DNA of 36,528 bases from a virus. The notes under the pieces were generated by a model. It was not told where the DNA came from and did not search any database. It saw nothing but the letters and a program-made list of their open reading frames with translations. How positions within the stretch are numbered: the stretch's first letter is position 1; each line of letters starts with the position of its first letter. The DNA is taken from positions 1 to 36,528 of IMG/VR virus record IMGVR_UViG_3300031885_000059. One strand, written 5' to 3'. The position numbers and the translations under genes are program-made. Below are positions 3,469 through 34,877 of this stretch, in pieces.

Positions 3469-5049
3469 TCACGCCGCTTCCTCCTCCAGGTCGCCGCCCA
3501 GCCAGGGCGACTCGGGCCGGTCGGCCTCGTCGTACTCGACCTCTAGCGAATGGACGCAATTGTGCACTATAATGCCCCCAGCTAGATAAGCACCTGAGAC
3601 CGTTTGGAGGTCATACACGTGAGCCACGTGGTGTTGCGGAAGCGTCTCAGCTATGACGACGTGGTCAAGGATTACCTCGCCGGCCAGTCCATGTGCGAGG
3701 TCGGAAGCCGCTACGGTATCTGCGCCAGTAGCGTCGGCAACATCCTGCGTCGACGTGGAATCACGGCTCGCCCCGCCGTTAGCGAGCGCACTTGGTCGGG
3801 CAGACGGGGCACGCGAGATAAGTTGTCCACCCTCCTGGCCCGCGCCAGGACCCGCCAGACAAGGCTGGTCGGCTCCAGCAAGCTGGAGGACAGATTCGCC
3901 ACCCTGCTCGATACACTGGGAGCCACCTACACGAGGCAGTTGGCCGTCTCCCGCTACAATCTCGATTTCGCCTTCAGCGAAGCCCCCGTCGCCGTGGAAA
4001 TCCGCGGCGGAAGCTATGACTTTGCGCGGCATTCGCAGTTGGCTGAGCGCACGAAATATCTCGTCGATGAGGGCTGGACCATTATCAGTCTCCATGCCCC
4101 CGGCATCCGCGTGCTCGCGCAGGCTGCGGAATACTGTGTCGCCTTGGCGAACAGACTTCGCTGGCAGCCACCCGCGGCCGGTCAACACCGGATGATTTGG
4201 GGTCAGCACCAACTCTGCGCCGCTCTCCGTGAGGAGTTTCCGGACCGGCCCTGCGTATGCCATCCGCGATGCCGCCAGGACGGCACCCAGTGGCACCACG
4301 GGCGTACCAGAGATCACGCAGTTGACGTGGAGAGGAACTGACCAGGTGTAGCCCTCCTCCAGCGGCACCCAGCCCTCGGCGACAAGGTCCTCGCAGTTGG
4401 GGCAGATCGCGCTCTGCGGGTCCACCCTGGCCCGCCCCGTGAGCTGGTTACGGTAGATGAAGTCCACCTGGGCGTAGTTGCGCGCCGTCCCCAGCTCAGT
4501 GACGCTAATGCTCGGCAGGTGCTTCTGCCAGCGCGCGGCGTCCCAGTCACTGAGCCTTTTGAGGTAGGTCCCCCGATTTGCCGTCGGCACGTCCTCGGCG
4601 ATGCGGGCGATCTGCCGGCGCATCTCGGCGTTGTAGGTGTCACTGATGCTGCTGGCCGCGAACTGGGCCCGATCGCGCAGGTCGCCGAGCACCATCGGGT
4701 CCGTCACCTTGAGGCTGCCAGCGAGGTCATAGCCCGCCACCCGCGCCTCCTGGAGGATGGCCGCCCCGAAGTCGCTCGTTGCCTGCCCGAACAGCTCGTC
4801 GGCCAGGAGGTCGGTGTACCTGGGACCAACGCTGAAGGCGTCGTACACCATCTCCTGGATGGCCGTGAGCTGCTGCTTGGACAGCGGGGCAGGGTAGGCG
4901 AGGGACAGGATCAGGCTCTTCTGCTTGCAGTACTCCTCGGTTGCATCCTTGAGGGCTGCGCAGTAGGCCGATGGATCGTCCTTGTCTTGGTTCGCCGCTA
5001 CACAATCGGCGAAGGAAGCGAATTCGCAGGAGCTTCCGAAAGGGGCCAT
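3469..5049 (-). CDS. MuF-like head morphogenesis protein with intein
   Basis: 526-residue precursor starting at MAPFGSS, whose ATG overlaps the upstream stop (TGATG). The extein (272 residues after splicing) has an N-terminal ASFADCVAANQDK segment and a C-terminal MuF/SPP1 gp7-like region ending in a zinc-type pattern: CPNCEDL, then SVPLHVN joined to CVHSLEVEY, equivalent to the HPNCRH motif of phage Mu F proteins. Residues 244-497 are an intein inserted exactly at that motif (the N|C junctions). The protein is a minor head protein near the portal, needed for assembly. Confidence 0.88.
   Translation of the reverse strand: MAPFGSSCEFASFADCVAANQDKDDPSAYCAALKDATEEYCKQKSLILSLAYPAPLSKQQLTAIQEMVYDAFSVGPRYTDLLADELFGQATSDFGAAILQEARVAGYDLAGSLKVTDPMVLGDLRDRAQFAASSISDTYNAEMRRQIARIAEDVPTANRGTYLKRLSDWDAARWQKHLPSISVTELGTARNYAQVDFIYRNQLTGRARVDPQSAICPNCEDLVAEGWVPLEEGYTWSVPLHVNCVISGTPVVPLGAVLAASRMAYAGPVRKLLTESGAELVLTPNHPVLTGRGWLPAKSVRQGDTVFRSLREHADAGGMETDNGPALIDEIFRALSQLRMPRKVIASAADFHGDGGFAEGEIEIVAGDGQLPRVGGSQCIEQGGESVLQLAGADQPCLAGPGAGQEGGQLISRAPSARPSALANGGASRDSTSTQDVADATGADTVAASDLAHGLAGEVILDHVVIAETLPQHHVAHVYDLQTVSGAYLAGGIIVHNCVHSLEVEYDEADRPESPWLGGDLEEEAA
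3559..4320 (-). other. Intein (Hint domain) in the head protein
   Basis: 254 residues. It begins CVISGTPV, has block B as TPNHPVLTGRGWLPA, and ends VYDLQTVSGAYLAGGIIVHN followed by Cys (+1), so all splicing residues are present: Cys1, TxxH, His-Asn and Cys+1. The roughly 130-residue linker has no LAGLIDADG or HNH motif. It contains DFHGDG...EIEIVAGDG and then an Ala/Ser/Gly-rich stretch. On the opposite strand the same DNA encodes a nuclease (3619-4341). Self-splicing is expected from the motifs. Confidence 0.9.
3568..3573 (+). promoter_or_regulatory. Candidate -10 box for the antisense nuclease
   Basis: A perfect TATAAT on the plus strand, 45 nt before the nuclease GTG. No convincing -35 is found 16-18 nt upstream, and the bases also encode the intein C-terminus (GIIVHN) on the other strand, so this is tentative. 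Confidence 0.35.
3619..4341 (+). CDS. HTH + DUF559/Vsr-like homing-type endonuclease, antisense to the intein
   Basis: 240 residues from GTG 3619, which has GGAGG at 3606-3610, 8 nt upstream; an in-frame TTG at 3604 precedes it. Residues about 10-50 are a helix-turn-helix (YDDVVKDYLAG, then SVGNILRRRGI). Residues about 90-160 match the DUF559/Vsr-like nuclease fold: KLEDRFATLL, YNLDFAF (Asp), VAVEIRGG (Glu) and ERTKYLVDEGW. The last 60 residues lie opposite intein block B and may be incidental. The ORF sits almost entirely inside the intein on the opposite strand, which suggests the homing nuclease of that intein. Confidence 0.8.
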   Translation: MSHVVLRKRLSYDDVVKDYLAGQSMCEVGSRYGICASSVGNILRRRGITARPAVSERTWSGRRGTRDKLSTLLARARTRQTRLVGSSKLEDRFATLLDTLGATYTRQLAVSRYNLDFAFSEAPVAVEIRGGSYDFARHSQLAERTKYLVDEGWTIISLHAPGIRVLAQAAEYCVALANRLRWQPPAAGQHRMIWGQHQLCAALREEFPDRPCVCHPRCRQDGTQWHHGRTRDHAVDVERN

Positions 5050-5249
5050 CACAGTTGCCTGCCGCAGTACCGGCAACTCGTCGGCCCATTCTGGTACCGC
5101 ATCTGCCCTCGCCCGCAGTGGCTGCACTTGACCGACCGGCCATAGCTTCCGCCCAGCGGCGACGCCGCCTCGGGCCCACAAGGTGCCACCGGCGGCTTGG
5201 TTCGGAGCGCCGTCCGGGAGGCTCTTCCCTCAACCCAGCGCTTGCCCAA
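5049..5249 (-). CDS. Small zinc-ribbon protein
   Basis: 66 residues. The C-terminal half holds CSHCGRG...CRYCGRQL, a CxxC-n-CxxC zinc ribbon. The stop overlaps the head-protein start (TGATG). The N-terminal 35 residues are of low complexity, so the true start may lie downstream of 5249. Function is unknown. Confidence 0.65.
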   Translation of the reverse strand: MGKRWVEGRASRTALRTKPPVAPCGPEAASPLGGSYGRSVKCSHCGRGQMRYQNGPTSCRYCGRQL

Positions 5250-11365: not shown

Positions 11366-12174
11366 GGGATGGTCCCCCTTTGTTTGGAGCGCCGGGATGG
11401 AATTGCACCACCCTCTCCCGCATGGATAGCGGGCACATCGCTGTCTATGCTTCCAGCGCCCAGGGCTTCCTCGATCATGTCCAGCAACAGCATCATCGCC
11501 GTCGCGCCATTGCGGACGTCGCGCTCTGCCATCTTCTCGGCTAGCGCGTTCAGGAGCCGGTCGTGCTCGGACCACCGCGCCAGGATGGTCGGAGTCTTGA
11601 TGTCGGCCGCGATCTTGTCGAGCATGGAACGCAGCCGCTCCACCTCCTCCGGCAGAAAGGCGAACGAGATGACGTGGTAGTCCAGGGGGATGTCGGTTAG
11701 GGCCTGGGGTTCGATAGAGGCCAGTTGCAGAAGAATCGCGTCGTCGAGGCCGGAGTATTCCTTGAGGACCACGTCGTCGATCTCGTTGAACAGCTCCCGC
11801 AGGATGACCGAGTCGTCTTCTCCCACGATGGCGTTGTGCGAGAGCTGCTTCGCCACCTCTTCGCCCCTGGTCATGTCATCGGTGATGACCAGCACAGCTA
11901 GGCGCTGGATGCCAGCCTGCTTAGCTGCCATGACGCGATGATTCCCTGAGATGACGCGGAGCTTGCCGTCCGGGAGTAGCCGGCAGAGTGGGACGCTTTC
12001 GACCCGGCCGTCATGCTTGAGATTGTCCACCAGGGCGCCGAAGGTGGCGGCGGACATCATGCGCGCGTTCTTCTCGAGCAGTTGCAGCTCGTCTATGCTG
12101 GCGTATCTGAGCGTCAGACCGTCCGGCAGGCGAAGACTCAGTTCGTCGATGTCCCGTGATTTTGTAGCCACCAC
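11362..12174 (-). CDS. ParB/Srx-fold nuclease-domain protein
   Basis: 270 residues from GTG 12174, which has GGAGGGG 7 nt upstream and overlaps the preceding gene by 37 nt. The N-terminal domain shows LLEKNARMMSAATFGALVDNL and the signature SGNHRVMAAKQAG (residues 76-88), then QLSHNAIVGEDD. This phage ParB-type family is commonly found next to terminase. The C-terminal half is helical. The likely role is in DNA binding, nicking or modification linked to packaging. It is the third ParB-type protein in the window and differs from the two partition-like ones. Confidence 0.85.
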   Translation of the reverse strand: MVATKSRDIDELSLRLPDGLTLRYASIDELQLLEKNARMMSAATFGALVDNLKHDGRVESVPLCRLLPDGKLRVISGNHRVMAAKQAGIQRLAVLVITDDMTRGEEVAKQLSHNAIVGEDDSVILRELFNEIDDVVLKEYSGLDDAILLQLASIEPQALTDIPLDYHVISFAFLPEEVERLRSMLDKIAADIKTPTILARWSEHDRLLNALAEKMAERDVRNGATAMMLLLDMIEEALGAGSIDSDVPAIHAGEGGAIPSRRSKQRGTIP

Positions 12175-13454
12175 TCTAGCCCCTCCTGGAGCGTCCATCG
12201 TCCCAGCTCGCCGACATAGTTTAGGTGCCCCTCCTTGCGAGAGTGCAGTTTGTAGATGCCGCGATACTTCATGCTAACAGGCTTCTCCGTGAAAGCCGTA
12301 GTCCCGATGGTCTTCGCCCTGGCGACCATCCCGCCATCCGATAGCGAGAGCCTAAGCTCCCGGGACAGACTCGCGGCCAGGACGAGCTTGCCCAGGCGTC
12401 GATAGCGATGGTGGGGCACGGCCACGTCACACATCATGTAGAGGTCGCAGAAGCCGGCGCCTGCAGAGCTACGGGAGAAGCCCAGGACCCCGACGAGGTA
12501 CTCGTCCATCATGACGGCGAACGTGAATTGTGGCTGCGCCGGGATGATGTTCTTGCCGAGCAGGCAGTCGCGAAGCCAGCGGAAGGCGGGCGCGTCCAGC
12601 TTCATCAGCCGAAGTTTGCAGGAGGGCGAGATCTCGGCGTCCTGGGGCAGTCTCTTCAGGTGGGGGTCACGGGTCTTCTCTCGTGTCCTGGCAAGGCGAG
12701 AGTGGCCCAGGCTCCCATAGCAGTAGACGGGGCGCTTTCGCAGAGATGGCACAGCGACGCCGACGAGGTGGCCGCGGAGGTCCTCGATAAGCCGATCGTT
12801 AAACAGCAGCCAGTGGGGTCGGATGGTGAGAATCGCTATGAGCTGGGCCATGCTTGACTCGTCGAACATGCGATAGGAGGGCCGGTCTCGCCAGTCGAAC
12901 ACCTTGTCCATGTTCTTGTAAAGCTGCTCGTATCCGCCCTTGTAGGTTGGCGGGGCGGTCATAATTCCGGCGCCGGCGGGAGCCGCGGAGAGGTGATCGA
13001 TCACGTCGCCGGCGTAGTATGAGGCGGCCTTCAGGCCGCCGAGGGCCTTCTCCGCCTTTGCCTTTGTCCCCTCGTGCAGATCATTGAAATGAACCCGGTA
13101 TGCCTCCACGCGGCGCGTCCAATATTCCGAGTCCTTGCCGTAGCCCCGCAGCATCGACGTACAAAGCAGCAGGGTGGCGACGGTATCGAGCGGAGTCTTC
13201 AGGTAGGACCCCAGCCAAGCATACTCCTGGTCCTTGATGGCAAGGCCCAGGGCAGCCCCCGTTAGGTAGGCGCCGATAGCGGAGCTGTAGAGGCTGACGT
13301 CGCTGGAGTGGCAGTTGACGGGGACAGATGCGAGGGCGCGTTCGAGGCCGAATTTGCCGGAGCAGCCCACATAGAGGTCGGAGACGGGCCAGTCTCGGAC
13401 GGCCTCAAGGGCCATCGACTTGAGAGGCTGGGGCAGGCCGCCGATGAAGGGCAT
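12138..13454 (-). CDS. Methyltransferase-like + Mom-like acyltransferase fusion
   Basis: 438 residues from MPFIGG (13454). The N-terminal domain has LYVGCSGKFGLERAL (27-41, like AdoMet motif I), HSSDVSLYS (49-57, acidic motif II) and APPTYKGGYEQLY (167-179, in place of the DPPY catalytic motif). It resembles phage proteins annotated as putative antirestriction adenine methyltransferases. The C-terminal domain (about 305-430) looks GNAT/Mom-like: DLYMMCDVAVP, RYRRLGKLVLAASLSREL, and KPVSMKYRGIYKLHSRKEG. Mu Mom modifies adenine in phage DNA to resist restriction. The gene lies between DUF488 and ParB-type genes, so a DNA-modification role is likely but inferred. Confidence 0.7.
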   Translation of the reverse strand: MPFIGGLPQPLKSMALEAVRDWPVSDLYVGCSGKFGLERALASVPVNCHSSDVSLYSSAIGAYLTGAALGLAIKDQEYAWLGSYLKTPLDTVATLLLCTSMLRGYGKDSEYWTRRVEAYRVHFNDLHEGTKAKAEKALGGLKAASYYAGDVIDHLSAAPAGAGIMTAPPTYKGGYEQLYKNMDKVFDWRDRPSYRMFDESSMAQLIAILTIRPHWLLFNDRLIEDLRGHLVGVAVPSLRKRPVYCYGSLGHSRLARTREKTRDPHLKRLPQDAEISPSCKLRLMKLDAPAFRWLRDCLLGKNIIPAQPQFTFAVMMDEYLVGVLGFSRSSAGAGFCDLYMMCDVAVPHHRYRRLGKLVLAASLSRELRLSLSDGGMVARAKTIGTTAFTEKPVSMKYRGIYKLHSRKEGHLNYVGELGRWTLQEGLEWWLQNHGTSTN

Positions 13455-13464
13455 TTCAGCGCTA

Positions 13465-13812
13465 TCATAAGGCCGGTGTCCACAAGCTCGGATTCTGCTC
13501 CGGCACCGATGTGCCGAGCTCCCGCTCCAGCCATTCCGCGACGAGGCGGCGGTGGCAGAACTCCCCGGGCTTCTCCCAGCAGAGAAGGATGGCATCCTCG
13601 CCGACTTCCTCTAGGATGGCCTTGGCGTCCAGACGCTCCAGCTGGAGCATGAACTTCTCGCGGAAGACGGCCTCGTCGGTCTCTTTCACCAGCGCCCAGG
13701 TCGCCGGTGCCAGAGGCAAGCACCTGCGACCCTTGAACCCTCTCGGTACCCCCCTGCTAATAGCGATGGCGTTGGGGTCCGTTCCTGAGAGTTTGAAGTT
13801 TGAGGTCTTCAT
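13465..13812 (-). CDS. DUF488-family protein
   Basis: 115 residues. ILLCWEKPGEFCHRRLVAEWLE (about 82-103) is the DUF488 signature. It begins at a TAATG overlap with the ParB stop. DUF488 has no settled biochemical role; in phages it recurs near DNA-modification genes. Its place between ParB and the Mom-like fusion suggests the same pathway. Confidence 0.8.
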   Translation of the reverse strand: MKTSNFKLSGTDPNAIAISRGVPRGFKGRRCLPLAPATWALVKETDEAVFREKFMLQLERLDAKAILEEVGEDAILLCWEKPGEFCHRRLVAEWLERELGTSVPEQNPSLWTPAL

Positions 13813-30031: not shown

Positions 30032-30697
30032 CTAGGCGTTCGGCCAAACGCCCTCAGCGCCACCGCGCAGCCGCCGGAACTGGGTGGTACCGTCTCGCTT
30101 GGTGAAGTCGTAGACCACGTCGCCTGCCTCCACCAGTGCCTCTCGGCCTGTCTGAGCGATCACGATGAGCTGGAATCTGCCCTCTTCGCAGATACGCCTC
30201 AGCAGGACAGCGGCTTGGGGCAGGAAGTCGGCGCTCAAGTTCCCAAAGCTCTCATCTAGGATCAGGAGCCTTCCTAGCGACGGGCGGGCGGCCAGCAGGA
30301 CGATCGTGTGCAGCAGGAAAGAGGTCACATTGACTAGGCCGCCTCCGTCGGCCTCCATAAGCTCGGTCTTCAGGCCCGTGCTGTCCACGACGAAGAAGTG
30401 CGCCACGGGCAGGTCTCCCTGTATTCCCATCTCGACCACAAGCGTCAGCGGCTCACCGAACACACCGGTCAGACCAGGGCTTACGAGCTCGCTGACGGCG
30501 GCCTCGAAACCGCCTCGCCAGACCTCCTGGGCCGCAGCGAGGAGCGCGACCACCTGGTTTAGGACATCGGCGCGCTTCCTGTGCGTCTCGCCGTCGCACT
30601 CAAGGACCTCGGCCTGGCGCTGTAGCAGGGCACGGGCGCCGGCCCGTTCCTTCAGCCGGTCACCCAGGCACGCAAGATCCCTATCCAGCTCGTCCAC
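30032..30697 (-). CDS. Rad50/SbcC-like ATPase, C-terminal half
   Basis: 221 residues from GTG 30697. A short coiled coil (1-60) leads to the C-terminal ATPase lobe: EADGGGLVNV (115-124, replacing the LSGG signature), Walker B RLLILDES (143-150) and VIAQTG (179-184, switch position where His is common). There is no Walker A. The missing half is encoded at 33933-34877, so together they would make one ATP-binding head dimer. Confidence 0.85.
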   Translation of the reverse strand: MDELDRDLACLGDRLKERAGARALLQRQAEVLECDGETHRKRADVLNQVVALLAAAQEVWRGGFEAAVSELVSPGLTGVFGEPLTLVVEMGIQGDLPVAHFFVVDSTGLKTELMEADGGGLVNVTSFLLHTIVLLAARPSLGRLLILDESFGNLSADFLPQAAVLLRRICEEGRFQLIVIAQTGREALVEAGDVVYDFTKRDGTTQFRRLRGGAEGVWPNA

Positions 30698-30893
30698 CGA
30701 CGGTCTCCCTCGGAGTGCGCAGCGCGGCCCTGGCCACGAAGCCCACGCCCAGCTCGACGCACTCCCGATACGTGGCGAACAGACACCAGTCGACGAGAAA
30801 CAGGCCGCGATCGTTCAGGACATCGGCGTATTCCCGCCGCATTCCTATCAGGCGTCTCAGTCTGGCCAAGCGCTCAGCCGCCAGCTCCATCAC
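30681..30893 (-). CDS. Small protein between Rad50 pieces
   Basis: 70 residues, ATGA overlap upstream and 17-nt overlap with the Rad50 C-half. Helical first part (MELAAERLARLRRLIG), then FLVDWCLFATYRECVELG. It may be part of the same complex because of its position, but nothing identifies it. Confidence 0.72.
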   Translation of the reverse strand: MMELAAERLARLRRLIGMRREYADVLNDRGLFLVDWCLFATYRECVELGVGFVARAALRTPRETVGGRAG

Positions 30894-31141
30894 CGGGCCT
30901 CCGCCTGTAGGGACGCGAGGTCCCGCCGGATGGCCTCCTGCTCGGCCTGCACTTCGGCGGTGCGGGCTTGGAGCTGGCTCTCCAGGTCGCCATCAGCGGA
31001 GAAGCCCAGCGTCTCGATCTCGGCACGCAGCCGCCCCATCTCTTCGTCCCCCGCCGCCATCAGGGCCTCCAGGCGTGTCACGTCGGCGGAGGCGCGCTCG
31101 ACATCCGAGCGCAGCTTTAGGACTTCGTCGGCGGTTGGCAT
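30890..31141 (-). CDS. Coiled-coil protein next to the Rad50 C-half
   Basis: 83 residues, nearly all heptad-like: VLKLRSDVERASADVTRLEA, EMGRLRAEIETLG and LESQLQARTAEVQAEQEAI. AGGTGGTGGAAG precedes the ATG. It may supply the coiled-coil segment lost between the two Rad50 halves. That is inference; coiled coils are common. Confidence 0.8.
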   Translation of the reverse strand: MPTADEVLKLRSDVERASADVTRLEALMAAGDEEMGRLRAEIETLGFSADGDLESQLQARTAEVQAEQEAIRRDLASLQAEAR

Positions 31142-31455
31142 CTTCCACCACCTCCACGTTCGCCACGAGTCGCAGCCGCAGCAGCGAGGCTTGCCGCCAG
31201 CCGCTCGCGGGCCCAGCGCTCGACCTTCTCCTTAGCCCGCTGCACCTTCTGCTCCCAAGTCACGCCCCGCCAGCGCTCCCACCAGTTGGGCGGCCACACG
31301 TAGATCACGCAGGGCGTCGGGCCGCTGCAAGCCGTGACTATGACCTGCGCCTCCAGAGAAGACAGGGCAGGAGCCGACTCATCGAACAGAACCGCCTCCA
31401 CCTTCACCATGCCCTGCAGCGGCGTGACCTGGACTTCGTAGCGCTCGGCAGTCAT
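31117..31455 (-). CDS. Hypothetical protein
   Basis: 112 residues starting MTAERYEVQVTPLQG (ATGA overlap). A beta-sheet-like N-terminal half (MVKVEAVLFDESAP, QVIVTACSG) is followed by WPPNWWERWRGVTWEQKV and an Ala/Arg-rich helix. Not recognised. Confidence 0.75.
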   Translation of the reverse strand: MTAERYEVQVTPLQGMVKVEAVLFDESAPALSSLEAQVIVTACSGPTPCVIYVWPPNWWERWRGVTWEQKVQRAKEKVERWARERLAASLAAAAATRGERGGGGRCQPPTKS

Positions 31456-31670
31456 GCGTGGCTCCCATTCGAAGGCAATGCCCGGAGCGCCGCCATGAGC
31501 AGCGTGCGGATGGCATTCGTCTCCGCGTCCTTCGGAACGCACAGCACGAGGCTGTTCTCACCATGCTTCACGCCAAGGAGCAACACGGGCGTCGCCAGCT
31601 CGCCAGCCAGCTTATCGGCCCACGTGGCCAGACACTCCCGACAGATGGCCAGCGCCTCCGGCTTGTCCAT
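31452..31670 (-). CDS. Small hypothetical protein
   Basis: 72 residues, starting 1 nt after the preceding stop. CRECLATWADKLAGEL, LVLCVPKD and a helical C-terminus suggest a small alpha-beta fold with one CxxC. Not recognised. Confidence 0.72.
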   Translation of the reverse strand: MDKPEALAICRECLATWADKLAGELATPVLLLGVKHGENSLVLCVPKDAETNAIRTLLMAALRALPSNGSHA

Positions 31671-31671
31671 G

Positions 31672-31992
31672 CTAGGGGTCCTTTATCTTCGGGTGGGGCA
31701 GCGTCGCCTGGCCCCGAGAGAGGATCGCTCGGATGTCCTCCGGACCCAACTCGTCCGAGATGTCGACCAGCTCGCCGCCTTCCAACACGTAGGGGGTCAT
31801 GCAGCGGGCGCAGATCTTGATGGCTGACGGCTCGGCGTAGTTCTTCCAGCGCTCGAGCTCGCTGCCATCCAGCCCGGCGGTATTACCCGTGTGGAGCACC
31901 ACCAGGCCCCAGTCGTAGAACACGGCCGAGCCGCACTCACCGTTTTCTGCCCTCGCTGGGCACCTCTTGACCATCTTCAGTGGGCTGTCCAT
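31672..31992 (-). CDS. Small zinc-site protein, near-leaderless start
   Basis: 106 residues starting MDSPLKMVKR. CPARAENGEC...CARCMTPYVL gives a plausible four-Cys zinc site. An upstream in-frame ATG (32022) lies upstream of the predicted transcript start. The start codon is 2 nt after the predicted mRNA 5' end. Not recognised. Confidence 0.75.
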   Translation of the reverse strand: MDSPLKMVKRCPARAENGECGSAVFYDWGLVVLHTGNTAGLDGSELERWKNYAEPSAIKICARCMTPYVLEGGELVDISDELGPEDIRAILSRGQATLPHPKIKDP

Positions 31993-32000
31993 GCCGCCTC

Positions 32001-32030
32001 CTTTTAGCATTCTACTGCACAATTTGTCAA
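32001..32030 (-). promoter_or_regulatory. Promoter, family B (31992 gene)
   Basis: TTGACA (32025-32030), 18-nt spacer and TAAAAG (32001-32006) after TGC; TTGTGCAG lies in the spacer (32015-32022). The -35 overlaps the Mre11 stop codon. The predicted start at 31994 leaves a 2-nt leader. Confidence 0.75.
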
Positions 32031-33001
32031 ACAGAAGGAACGCCTGAGGCCCGCGCCAGATACTCGCGGGCCACCTTCACCACCTCGGGGTCCGCCCGCT
32101 CCTCCAGGCTCCGCAGGATCTCGTCCAGGGACAGGTGATCCAGGGAAAGGCCCGTCTCCAGGGCGGTCACGTAGCCGGCGAACAGTTCTGAATTTCCGAG
32201 CGCCCGGAGATTCTCAGACCAGGCGAACACCTCCTTCCCCGGCCGGGCCGAACGCAGGGGCACCTCCTCAAAGGCCGGCTCCTTGCCCTTCTCCAGCGTA
32301 ACGATAAGCACCGCCGGCTGGCGCTCCATTTCACCGGCGGAGCGGCTCGTGCGGGCCACAGAGCCGGGCCCCGCGAACCAGCAGCCATTCACCTTCTGCG
32401 GCTTCGTCCGCCAGTGGGTGTCGGCCTGTAGCAGCACGTCCATCCCCACCGTCGGGACCTGCTCCATGGCGATAGCAGGGAACGGATAGCCGCCCTCGCC
32501 GCGCAGGATCATGGCATGGGCAACCTTCACGGCGAAATCGGCCCGAGGGTCGCGGTCAAGGGCCAGCCACTCCGGATGCTCCTCTATGTTCGGGCACCAG
32601 TTGGCAGGCGAAAGCTGCACGCAGAGGCCGTCCCTCTGAATCAGGAGGTCCTGACTAAGCCAGTCCAGCGGGCCCTCGCGCAGCGCCTCAAAGACGACAC
32701 CGATGGGCTGACGGCCGATGCTGTCCGTTCCCTCGCTGCCGAGGTCATGCTGACCGACCAGGGTCCAAAGCTCGCCCGGCCAGTCCCGCAGGAACTCGAT
32801 AAGCCGGCGCACGAGACGGTGACTAGTTTCATTCGAGCGCGGCCAATGCAGAACATCCCCGCCACAGATGCTGATATCGGCACCGCGAGCTAGGTCGCGG
32901 ATCTCGCCGAGCTTGGCGAAAATGTCCTCGGGATAGGACGGCGCCCGCGCCAGGGGGGGGCGCTCGCCGATATGCGTGTCACTGAAGAAGAGGAGCCTCA
33001 T
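32027..33001 (-). CDS. Mre11/SbcD-like nuclease
   Basis: 324 residues from ATG 33001 (ATGA overlap). Metallophosphoesterase motifs: FSDTHIG (6-12), GGDVLH (47-52), GQHD (83-86, where most relatives have GNHD), HAMI (162-165) and QADTHW (192-197). Together with the Rad50-type halves it would process DNA ends, as gp47 does with gp46 in T4. Asn to Gln at the metal-binding position is seen in the sequence; its effect is not known. A run of eight G bases (near 32950) lies early in the gene. Confidence 0.88.
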   Translation of the reverse strand: MRLLFFSDTHIGERPPLARAPSYPEDIFAKLGEIRDLARGADISICGGDVLHWPRSNETSHRLVRRLIEFLRDWPGELWTLVGQHDLGSEGTDSIGRQPIGVVFEALREGPLDWLSQDLLIQRDGLCVQLSPANWCPNIEEHPEWLALDRDPRADFAVKVAHAMILRGEGGYPFPAIAMEQVPTVGMDVLLQADTHWRTKPQKVNGCWFAGPGSVARTSRSAGEMERQPAVLIVTLEKGKEPAFEEVPLRSARPGKEVFAWSENLRALGNSELFAGYVTALETGLSLDHLSLDEILRSLEERADPEVVKVAREYLARASGVPSV

Positions 33002-33276
33002 TGTTCCTCTCTCACCTCTACTTCGCCGGCGACCACCCACTTACCATCAGCGCGGCGCCAGTGCCTAGTCGGGACAACACGCGACAACAGGCGCTCGACC
33101 CGTCGTACCTCACGCCTGTTCGGGCAGACCGCGTACGCTATCCCTGACGCGCTCACCAGCCCTTGCTCCACGCCGAGTACCCGCCTCAGCGCGATGTTGC
33201 GGTCGCCACCCCAGTGCATGGCAAGCACACGCGCCAGCTTTTCCCTCTCGGACAGAGCCTTCTTAGCGGCTGGCAA
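32998..33276 (-). CDS. Small hypothetical protein (TTG start)
   Basis: 92 residues from TTG 33276 directly after GGAGGAGGAG; the nearby ATG (33293) runs into a stop after nine codons. KKALSEREKLARVLAMHWGG and CPNRREVRRVERLLSRVVP suggest a helical DNA-associated protein. ATGA overlap with Mre11. Not recognised. Confidence 0.75.
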   Translation of the reverse strand: MPAAKKALSEREKLARVLAMHWGGDRNIALRRVLGVEQGLVSASGIAYAVCPNRREVRRVERLLSRVVPTRHWRRADGKWVVAGEVEVREEQ

Positions 33277-33302
33277 CGATCTCCTCCTCCATCACACGGT
33301 CC

Positions 33303-33530
33303 TCACGGGCCGAGATCGCGCGGGTGCAGCACCGCGTAGTCATCAAAGTTACCATCGAACTCCCAGGTATTATGATGGCGGACCCAGGCGTACAGGAAGG
33401 AGATAGTAGCTTCTGCTAGGCCTGGCGGTCGTTCCGGATGCCAATGAGCCATCGCGGCCTCCGGCGTTTGGAACACGCCCCGCACGACGCGGTCCTCGCA
33501 AATGCCTGTTTCTAGAACGTAGACCTTCAT
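33303..33530 (-). CDS. Small hypothetical protein
   Basis: 75 residues starting MKVYVLETGICEDRVVRGVF, a beta-strand pair typical of small phage proteins, then PEAAMAHWHPERPP. ATGA overlap upstream. Not recognised. Confidence 0.75.
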   Translation of the reverse strand: MKVYVLETGICEDRVVRGVFQTPEAAMAHWHPERPPGLAEATISFLYAWVRHHNTWEFDGNFDDYAVLHPRDLGP

Positions 33531-33739
33531 CCAGCCACCGGCTCCAGCCTGAGCTCCACCTCGCGGTCACAGTTAGCGCAGAGGTGGGGCATGGCGAGCA
33601 GGTTCTCGTCCACCACGCAGGGGACCCGGCCAAACAGCACGTGCCACGGAGGTTTCGCCCGGCGCTTCTGCCCGTGCACCGGACACCTCACCTCGACCAA
33701 CACGATGGGCCTACGCACATGCCTGCTCACTCTTCGCAT
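33527..33739 (-). CDS. Small zinc-site protein
   Basis: 70 residues starting MRRVSRHVRR. CPVHGQKRRAK and HLCANCDREVEL give CxxH and CxxC, a probable zinc ribbon of treble-clef type. Overlaps the upstream gene by 13 nt. Confidence 0.72.
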   Translation of the reverse strand: MRRVSRHVRRPIVLVEVRCPVHGQKRRAKPPWHVLFGRVPCVVDENLLAMPHLCANCDREVELRLEPVAG

Positions 33740-33936
33740 CCGTGCACCTCGCGCAGATGACGTTGGCGCGCCAACTCGCAGGCCTCCGCCTCGCTGTTGG
33801 CCTGCACCCACGTGATGCTGTGCCTCCGTCCGCAGGAGCAGACCGGGCAGGCCAGGTAGACCTTATACTCGCCCAACCGAACATACAGACACGCCACGGC
33901 GACGATCGCCTCAGCGACCGCCTGGACGCCGGTCAT
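33727..33936 (-). CDS. Small hypothetical zinc-site protein
   Basis: 69 residues starting MTGVQAVAEA in an ATGA overlap with the Rad50 N-half stop. CPVCSCGRRHSITW gives a compact Cys/His site; the C-terminal half is a helix with SEAEACELARQRHLREVHG. Not recognised. Confidence 0.75.
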   Translation of the reverse strand: MTGVQAVAEAIVAVACLYVRLGEYKVYLACPVCSCGRRHSITWVQANSEAEACELARQRHLREVHGCEE

Positions 33937-34877
33937 CTCATGCTCCTCTGGCACACCGGGCACATCTCCAGGCTGTCCAGCACGGAGTGGAGCTGCTTCT
34001 CTGAGGCATCGAGGCGTTGGCGCGCCTGGGCAAGCTGCTGACGCATGCCCTCCTGTCTCGCAGCTACCCCAACCCGCGCTGCAATGACGCCAGCGGCCCT
34101 CACCAGGGCATCAGCACGCCCCGTGAGCGCGGTCATCCGGTCCGGGAGGGCAGCGTCTTTCCAGCCTGCCCTGAGCCCCAGGAGCCGCCGCAGCCGCCCC
34201 GACGCGACCCTCGCGGCGTCCAAGCCCTCCTCGGCCCGCTGCGCGGCCCTGCGACGTTCCTGGAGCGATTCCCAACGCGTCAGGAGCATGGGGTAGTCGG
34301 GCATCGCCTCCAGCTCGGTGTGCACCGTCTCCGCCCGCGATTCCGCGTCGCTAGCCAGGCGCTCGGTCCGGTCGCGGTCCCTCTTCGCCTCCACCTGGGC
34401 ACGAACGACGTCATCCATCTTGGAGACGTGGGCGAGGAGCTTCGCCGCCTGCCCACCAGTGCTGGCCAGGAGAAACGGCTCGTCATGCTGGCAGTCGAAG
34501 TTGGGGCGGATGCGTACCCCGTCCACCTGGAGCTCTCGTATGCCCGTCAGCTCGGCGACGTTCGGGGGCAGCTCCCGCCCCAGGCGCGTCAGCAGTTGCT
34601 CGCCTTCAGCCGTCCGCAGCCGGTAGCTGGCGCCGCCCTTGGCGGGCTTCTCCCAGGTAACGCTCGCCTCTTCGAAATCCAGCGTGACCTCACCGGAGGC
34701 CGCGCCGGCTCGGACAAAGCGGGGGCCCGGCGTCCAGTTGAATAGGCAAGCACGGAGCGCGCGGACCAGGGCGGACTTCCCACTGCGCGACGGCCCGACG
34801 ATGACCGTCACCTGGCCCAGCTCGAGATCCACGTCGGCCAGGCTCTGGATGTCTTTGACCCGAATACGTTTCAGCAT
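33933..34877 (-). CDS. Rad50/SbcC-like ATPase, N-terminal half ending at a zinc hook
   Basis: 314 residues. The N-terminal lobe has Walker A GPSRSGKSA (28-36) and a Q-loop-like FDCQHDEPFLL (127-137). A coiled coil runs from about 155 to 300 and ends in MCPVCQRSMR, a CxxC motif like the zinc hook at the tip of Rad50. The chain stops 5 residues after it, so the return coil and Walker B half are absent and found separately at 30032-30697. The predicted mRNA is leaderless (2-nt leader). Confidence 0.88.
   Translation of the reverse strand: MLKRIRVKDIQSLADVDLELGQVTVIVGPSRSGKSALVRALRACLFNWTPGPRFVRAGAASGEVTLDFEEASVTWEKPAKGGASYRLRTAEGEQLLTRLGRELPPNVAELTGIRELQVDGVRIRPNFDCQHDEPFLLASTGGQAAKLLAHVSKMDDVVRAQVEAKRDRDRTERLASDAESRAETVHTELEAMPDYPMLLTRWESLQERRRAAQRAEEGLDAARVASGRLRRLLGLRAGWKDAALPDRMTALTGRADALVRAAGVIAARVGVAARQEGMRQQLAQARQRLDASEKQLHSVLDSLEMCPVCQRSMR

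Follow-up and report, generated by a model that had tools for sequence, protein, structure and literature searches.

The DNA analysed here, referred to below as the window, is a stretch of 36,528 nucleotides that makes up the IMG/VR virus record IMGVR_UViG_3300031885_000059 (36.5 kb, possibly a fragment). Genes for a portal, an XkdF-type protease, a head protein, and ParB-like and RusA-like proteins mark it as a contig of a tailed phage. Close to its end, genes for a Mre11-Rad50 system are found in which Rad50 is not specified by one continuous reading frame. All genes of this module are on the minus strand. In the direction of transcription, a Rad50 N-half of 314 amino acids (33933..34877), consisting of the N-lobe, a rising helical arm and a terminal zinc hook, is followed by a few small open reading frames (ORFs) and a gene for a Mre11/SbcD-like nuclease (32027..33001; 324 amino acids from the ATG at 33001, in a frame open from 33040). 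After more small ORFs come a small coiled-coil protein of 83 amino acids, termed coil below (30890..31141), an ORF of 70 amino acids overlapping both of its neighbours (30681..30893), and the Rad50 C-half of 221 amino acids, comprising the end of the descending arm and the C-lobe (30032..30697). The stop of the N-half and the start of the C-half are 3.2 kb apart. The original prediction of a Rad50 gene divided at the hook, with Mre11 and a free coiled-coil gene in between, thus holds in position and content, several other small ORFs being located there as well.

The N-half carries a Walker A motif, GPSRSGKS, at residues G28-S35 (34773..34796; identified from the sequence and its relatives), a Q-loop glutamine, Q130, and the zinc-hook motif C306-P-V-C309 (33951..33962). 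Its chain ends five residues past this motif, at residue 314. Matches were obtained to the Pfam family AAA_23 (5.6e-9) and to phrog_16465, annotated as 'exonuclease' (1e-25). A profile of N-half relatives matched Rad50 5f3w (6e-16), and its hook end matched the zinc-hook structure 1l8d (7e-4), with the hook structure 6zff also being detected. Walker A and Q-loop are kept in each of 47 aligned relatives, the residues G, S, G, and K of Walker A being invariant and the last one S or T; the two hook cysteines are present in 45 of the 47. In the C-half, signature glycines (GGG, residues 118-120; 30338..30346), a Walker B motif, LLILDE, ending in D148-E149 (30251..30268), and the D-loop residue S155 were identified. 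No Pfam match was found for this protein at 0.1. It matches phrog_15167, annotated as 'ATPase' (1e-20), and a profile of its relatives matched Rad50 3qkr_B (2e-15) and 1ii8_B (1.5e-14). Signature and Walker B are kept across 63 aligned C-half relatives (glycines in 62 to 63, D and E in 63). A CxxC motif was not detected in the N-terminal 110 residues of any of 112 distinct C-half proteins.

The closest relative of the module, L002, is located on a virus contig of 62.7 kb and shares content and order of these genes with the window, the proteins being 74-96% identical. Comparison of the two gave ratios of nonsynonymous to synonymous substitution rates (dN/dS) of 0.14 for the N-half, 0.26 for Mre11, 0.32 for coil, and 0.28 for the C-half, and internal stops were absent. 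The 70-amino-acid ORF is also conserved (91% identity, dN/dS 0.17), although its membership in the complex is uncertain. A full-length Rad50 elsewhere in the genome had been named as an observation that would speak against a split; neither such a gene nor a second N-half was found in the window or the L002 contig, both possibly fragments.

Scans of viral contigs yielded 92 relatives of the C-half, 80 of which were kept, and 65 of the N-half. When whole virus records were searched, all 45 records containing the N-half were found to encode the C-half in a separate ORF, and 43 of 47 records with a C-half also have an N-half. The recurrence in related phages for which the original prediction had called is therefore widespread. 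The split also occurs in cultured isolates, with modules in Tissierella praeacuta DSM 18095 (L170) and Brevibacillus fulvus DSM 25523 (L163). From the phylum of Tissierella, 249 genomes were sampled; an N-half match was obtained in 42 of them, and the C-half was present in all 42. The open frames of these N-halves range from 350 to 578 amino acids, except for one of 702 amino acids, a single-chain relative, leaving 41 split cases. Taken together, roughly a hundred virus contigs and about one sixth of the sampled genomes of this phylum show the split. Deposited phages carry the pieces under unrelated names. In Bacillus phage vB_BboS-125 gp32 is an exonuclease, gp33 an AP2 protein, gp34 the coil, and gp35 an ATPase; Tunturiibacter phage Tunturi_5 has the N-half as gp181, coil as gp180, and SbcD as gp177, with the C-half, gp14, elsewhere; and in Microbacterium phage Magritte the split proteins are the products of genes 155 and 2, which are far apart. 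The PHROGs database places the pieces in three families, 16465 ('exonuclease'), 15167 ('ATPase'), and 18563, which has no function assigned. A search with the N-half of the window as single sequence matched at least 5 of 50,697 phage records. The split may have escaped notice because so few cultured phages carry a match to the N-half.

The position of the break is well conserved. Among 107 distinct N-half proteins of suitable length, 98 have a CxxC motif not more than 25 residues from the C-terminus, and in 93 it reads CPxC. In 1277 other ORFs of similar length, which served as a control, CxxC occurred within the last 25 residues in 39 cases (3%) and CPxC in four. The N-half thus ends in a CxxC hook motif and not in a globular hinge of the SMC type. 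The exceptions include L165, whose hook is located slightly farther from the terminus, an ORF truncated by the end of its contig, and N-halves without a hook (L109:8989-10074, L150:9001-10062, and L004:6001-7053, which is gp155 of Magritte). L109 and L150 are placed among hook-bearing N-halves, in a weakly supported region of a tree that does not include Magritte gp155, and this position suggests that the hook was lost in their lineages. Two forms of the N-half occur, a short one with the hook near residue 310 and a long one with the hook near residue 490. A further variant was noted in contig IMGVR_UViG_3300035152_000033 (L192:3084-5291, minus strand), where the N-half is a single ORF of 735 amino acids with an intein-like insert of ~320 amino acids. 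The insert is located inside Walker A (GESG | CVDCDTEFF...FITGN | SGKSALIRA), and the genes for Mre11 and coil come next.

In ATP-binding cassette (ABC) proteins, an ATP site requires one head to provide Walker A, Q-loop, and Walker B and the partner head to provide the signature. Neither half has a complete site, since Walker A and Q-loop are in the N-half and GGG and Walker B in the C-half. As all these parts are conserved while being divided between the two proteins, N-half and C-half would have to associate for the usual activity. AlphaFold models of both halves were confident (mean predicted local distance difference test, pLDDT, 88.7 for N and 91.8 for C). The N-half model matches Rad50 1f2u_C (Z 12.3, 2.6 A over 129 residues) and the C-half model to 1f2u_B (Z 13.7, 2.6 A over 143 residues), a different chain of the same entry; the nearest solved structures hence include Rad50 heads built from separate N and C chains. 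The assembly of the two halves into one head is well supported.

Natural fusions link the pieces. In L119 (L119:8059-10374), one ORF of 771 amino acids combines Mre11 with the N-half and its hook and continues for another 142 residues; this segment behind the hook matches the coil family (1.5e-6), and the C-half is specified by a separate, overlapping gene. Chromosomal genes in a bacterial order, reached from G127, encode single chains that contain both the N-lobe and the C-lobe but hardly any arm or hook. Such arm-less proteins are either located beside Mre11 (373-406 amino acids; L212:2477-3697, L213:3194-4315, L214:2361-3488) or fused to it (684-783 amino acids; L191:4152-6254, L207:2264-4318, L208:3083-5170, L209:2859-4919, L210:2353-4704). 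The L191 gene adjoins an AddB-like gene. The existence of such fusions speaks for N and C, where free, being parts of one head as well. In a tree of N-lobes, the single-chain forms constitute one clade (support 0.90), and the window groups with L089, which is on the same contig as L002. Being midpoint-rooted without an outgroup, the tree is silent on which form is older, the split one or the single chain without an arm.

Coil, the third piece, also represents a protein family, and an iterated profile detected a member in most loci. Its layout is a helix, a short turn reading LGV or FGV, and a second helix; CxxC is absent from 87 distinct coil proteins. In 85 regions around N-half genes, some of them cut by contig ends, Mre11 was detected in 73, the C-half in 66, coil in 62, and all four genes in 59. 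These 59 loci include related contigs and are not 59 independent events. The genes are on the same strand and follow the order N-coil-C in all of them, while Mre11 is first in 14, behind the N-half in 15, and last in 30; all three arrangements retain N-coil-C. Coil and C-half genes often abut or overlap by four bases, and in many prophages nothing is located between the pieces of the module. Because a coil-family gene is located between N and C in all complete modules observed, the complex is probably made of three chains rather than two. The original prediction, in which a break at the hook leaves two chains meeting through their heads or the hook, is consequently borne out for the meeting at the head, in line with half-sites, co-occurrence, and single-chain relatives, and is probably incorrect in the number of chains.

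Most likely, coil makes up the stretch of the descending arm next to the hook, a placement judged from gene order, the L119 fusion, and length. In the window, the rising arm of ~148 residues is equalled by coil (83) plus the helix of the C-half above the head (~65). In the N-half model, helices span residues 155-191, 195-239, and 246-302 and are followed by the hook; in the C-half model, a single helix (2-80) precedes the lobe. The predicted template modelling score (pTM) of the N-half is 0.55, so that the relative placement of its helices is loose and both a straight arm and one folding back are compatible with the model. In the long form of the N-half, the rising arm is roughly 180 residues longer, and coil (~80 amino acids) and C-half (~215 amino acids) are unchanged in size. 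Because these sizes stay constant, the additional arm must fold back or protrude.

The Mre11-like protein is a metallophosphoesterase with a match to Pfam Metallophos (2e-5). Its metal ligands are conserved overall across the relatives. Linked changes of N to Q and H to D were observed in ~25 of 104 relatives, including the window, and constitute a coherent variant of the nuclease site. The residues concerned are N84 and H206 in the numbering of Pyrococcus furiosus.

From these data we consider it likely that the module specifies a phage Mre11-Rad50 complex in which Rad50 consists of separate chains, with N-half and C-half forming one ABC ATPase head, coil contributing to the arm, and the tips being joined by zinc. 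The N-half would bring Walker A, Q-loop, rising arm, and hook, and the C-half signature, Walker B, D-loop, and the last stretch of the descending arm. As in the cellular complex, closure of two heads upon ATP would drive the Mre11 nuclease. At the tip, one zinc ion would join two N chains, and the arm would be closed by non-covalent pairing with coil rather than by one continuous chain. Zinc induces the dimerisation of isolated hook peptides that are 4 to 45 residues long (logK12 14.9 to 20.7; PMC5093744), and a terminal CPxC could therefore, in principle, join two N chains. The complex would probably process and tether DNA ends for phage recombination, a role suggested by its family and by published views on phage SbcCD (PMC7824862). 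Geometry of arm and hook, co-assembly of the chains, the place of coil, dimerisation on zinc, and the role in recombination are what we infer beyond the head itself.

Several observations weigh against this interpretation. In database searches, the coil family did not match Rad50 better than generic coiled coils, and the sequence alone therefore does not identify coil as the descending arm. An LGF motif occurs in the descending arm of archaeal Rad50, but an archaeal search gave no clear Rad50 for comparison. Arms of equal length are obtained with the short form of the N-half only, and a few relatives have N-halves without a hook. The H-switch histidine, present in 58 of 63 C-half relatives including the nearest, is replaced in the window by G184 (30146-30148), beside an insertion of two residues, and the Mre11 of the window has the two metal-site changes common to about a quarter of its relatives. 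The activity of the complex is expected to be ordinary, but that of the window copy is uncertain because the histidine is missing and the metal site is changed.

Different explanations for the role of coil and for the separate genes have to be weighed. Rad50 could consist of the chains N and C only, coil being an accessory subunit, a regulator or an adaptor resembling Nbs1 or a kleisin. The lack of a preferential match to Rad50 would be explained in this way, the helix-turn-helix layout could represent a free hairpin, and coil was not found in some loci with both N and C, for example L131, L133, and L139. Its invariable position between N and C in the complete loci, the coil-family match following the hook in the same chain in L119, and the agreement of arm lengths in the window speak against this explanation, which we regard as possible but rather doubtful. 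Separate action of the two halves, for instance of N as a zinc-linked DNA tether and of C as an unrelated ATPase, could be proposed from phages in which the genes are tens of kilobases apart. However, each half lacks essential parts of the ATP site, yet conserves those it has, N and C co-occur nearly perfectly, and single-chain relatives hold both lobes, making this a very improbable explanation. The chance that a frameshift, an assembly error, or a decaying gene produced the split is practically negligible. The window record is a metagenomic fragment, but intact ORFs are under purifying selection in two independent contigs, and the break is found at the same position in the great majority of distinct N proteins, cultured isolates included; a sequencing error or a pseudogene was rejected on these grounds.

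The origin of the break is a different matter. It could be the result of neutral history: an ancestral gene would have been broken, by gene shuffling or by a mobile element, for example a homing endonuclease, and the pieces would have gone on working without the break acquiring a function of its own. An AP2-domain gene is located between N and coil in vB_BboS-125, varied cargo genes are found between the pieces in other phages, and the L119 fusion indicates that the break is partly closable. On the other hand, many prophages have nothing between the pieces, a common inserted element was not seen, and the break has been kept over about a hundred distinct proteins, which suggests at least that rejoining is of no strong advantage. 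We give neutral history slightly less than an even chance; it concerns origin and is compatible with a Rad50 of several chains. Alternatively, the break could be functional, so that the ring could be opened not only at the heads but also along the arm or at the tip, and coil could be exchanged; at present this seems unlikely. The assembly control or unusual geometry considered in the original prediction would be hypothetical, and the ordinary Rad50 shape may simply be reassembled from pieces.

Comparison with known systems revealed similarities and differences. The split proteins share with cellular Mre11-Rad50 and SbcCD the head folds, Walker A, Q-loop, signature glycines, Walker B, the CPxC hook, and a nearby Mre11/SbcD. 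Accordingly, bipartite head motifs (in the 47 N and 63 C relatives), CxxC, a putative zinc-binding motif, at the tip of a helical arm, and Mre11 in the vicinity were all found. In contrast to cellular Rad50, two halves plus a probable middle piece are present, the chain is interrupted shortly behind the hook, and separate ORFs replace the continuous polypeptide of N-lobe, hook, and C-lobe in the window as in the 45 virus records. The signature of the C-half reads xGGG, unlike the SGGE/Q usual in Rad50. T4 gp46/gp47 and the SbcC-like phrog_77 are likewise phage Mre11-Rad50 pairs, likely acting in recombination, but gp46-type proteins are single chains, and PHROGs keeps the split pieces in families other than phrog_77. 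In crystals of Rad50 catalytic domains (1f2t, 1f2u, 1ii8, 3qkr), one head is formed by separate N and C polypeptides as in the split Rad50; these are man-made constructs with truncated arm, without hook or coil, unlike the phage proteins. Fusion proteins of Mre11 and Rad50 have been published (PMC3175470). One chain holds parts of both there, with an undivided Rad50 part, and the two are likewise joined in L119 and some chromosomal relatives. The window genes, by contrast, are separate, and the chromosomal relatives described here lack the arm; Mre11 and Rad50 in one chain were detected in L119, L191, and L207-L210 only. In jumbo phages, the core of PolIII alpha is encoded by two genes (PMC7824862), a different enzyme, in which a cellular single-chain protein is likewise specified by separate and sometimes distant phage genes; in the passages considered here, this survey describes phage SbcC as an ortholog and does not mention a split. 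A defence system (Lamassu, PtuA, GajA) was considered and rejected, as little similarity beyond the N-lobe was observed. PADLOC matches of the N-half were mainly short ones in the N-lobe (LmuB residues 2-46), coil, C-half, and Mre11 of the window gave none at 0.01, and a full-length match to Lamassu LmuB or SMC-like defence proteins with their gene partners was not seen in the window. In the searched literature, with subscription papers and preprints mostly outside of it, a division of Rad50 or SbcC was nowhere described, which does not prove novelty; the recurrent split seems to be undescribed so far.

Two other ORFs of the window deserve mention. At 3469-5181, a head-protein-like ORF (phrog_15127, 8e-31) also showed a sub-threshold match to an intein-splicing domain (PF14890, 4e-7), and at 12138-13595, DAM-like methylase and GNAT-like phage domains are combined in one ORF (PF22555, PF22559).

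The long continuous arm of Rad50 and its hook are thought to be central to the tethering and processing of DNA breaks by Mre11-Rad50, and we think that the position of the break and its commonness would surprise a specialist. With the assignments made here, three protein families listed apart in databases, mostly without function, are united. Replacement of the Rad50 hook by an SMC hinge has been reported to be possible (PMC6969161). This fits the view that dimerisation is all that is required of the tip, a view that the split proteins would put to the test. The split group, in which head and hook are kept and the chain is cut past the hook, and the arm-less group constitute natural experiments on the function of the arm. 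If the break were functional, phages would in this way gate the loading of the complex onto DNA or its release from it, and Rad50 would be able to tether without a covalently closed arm.

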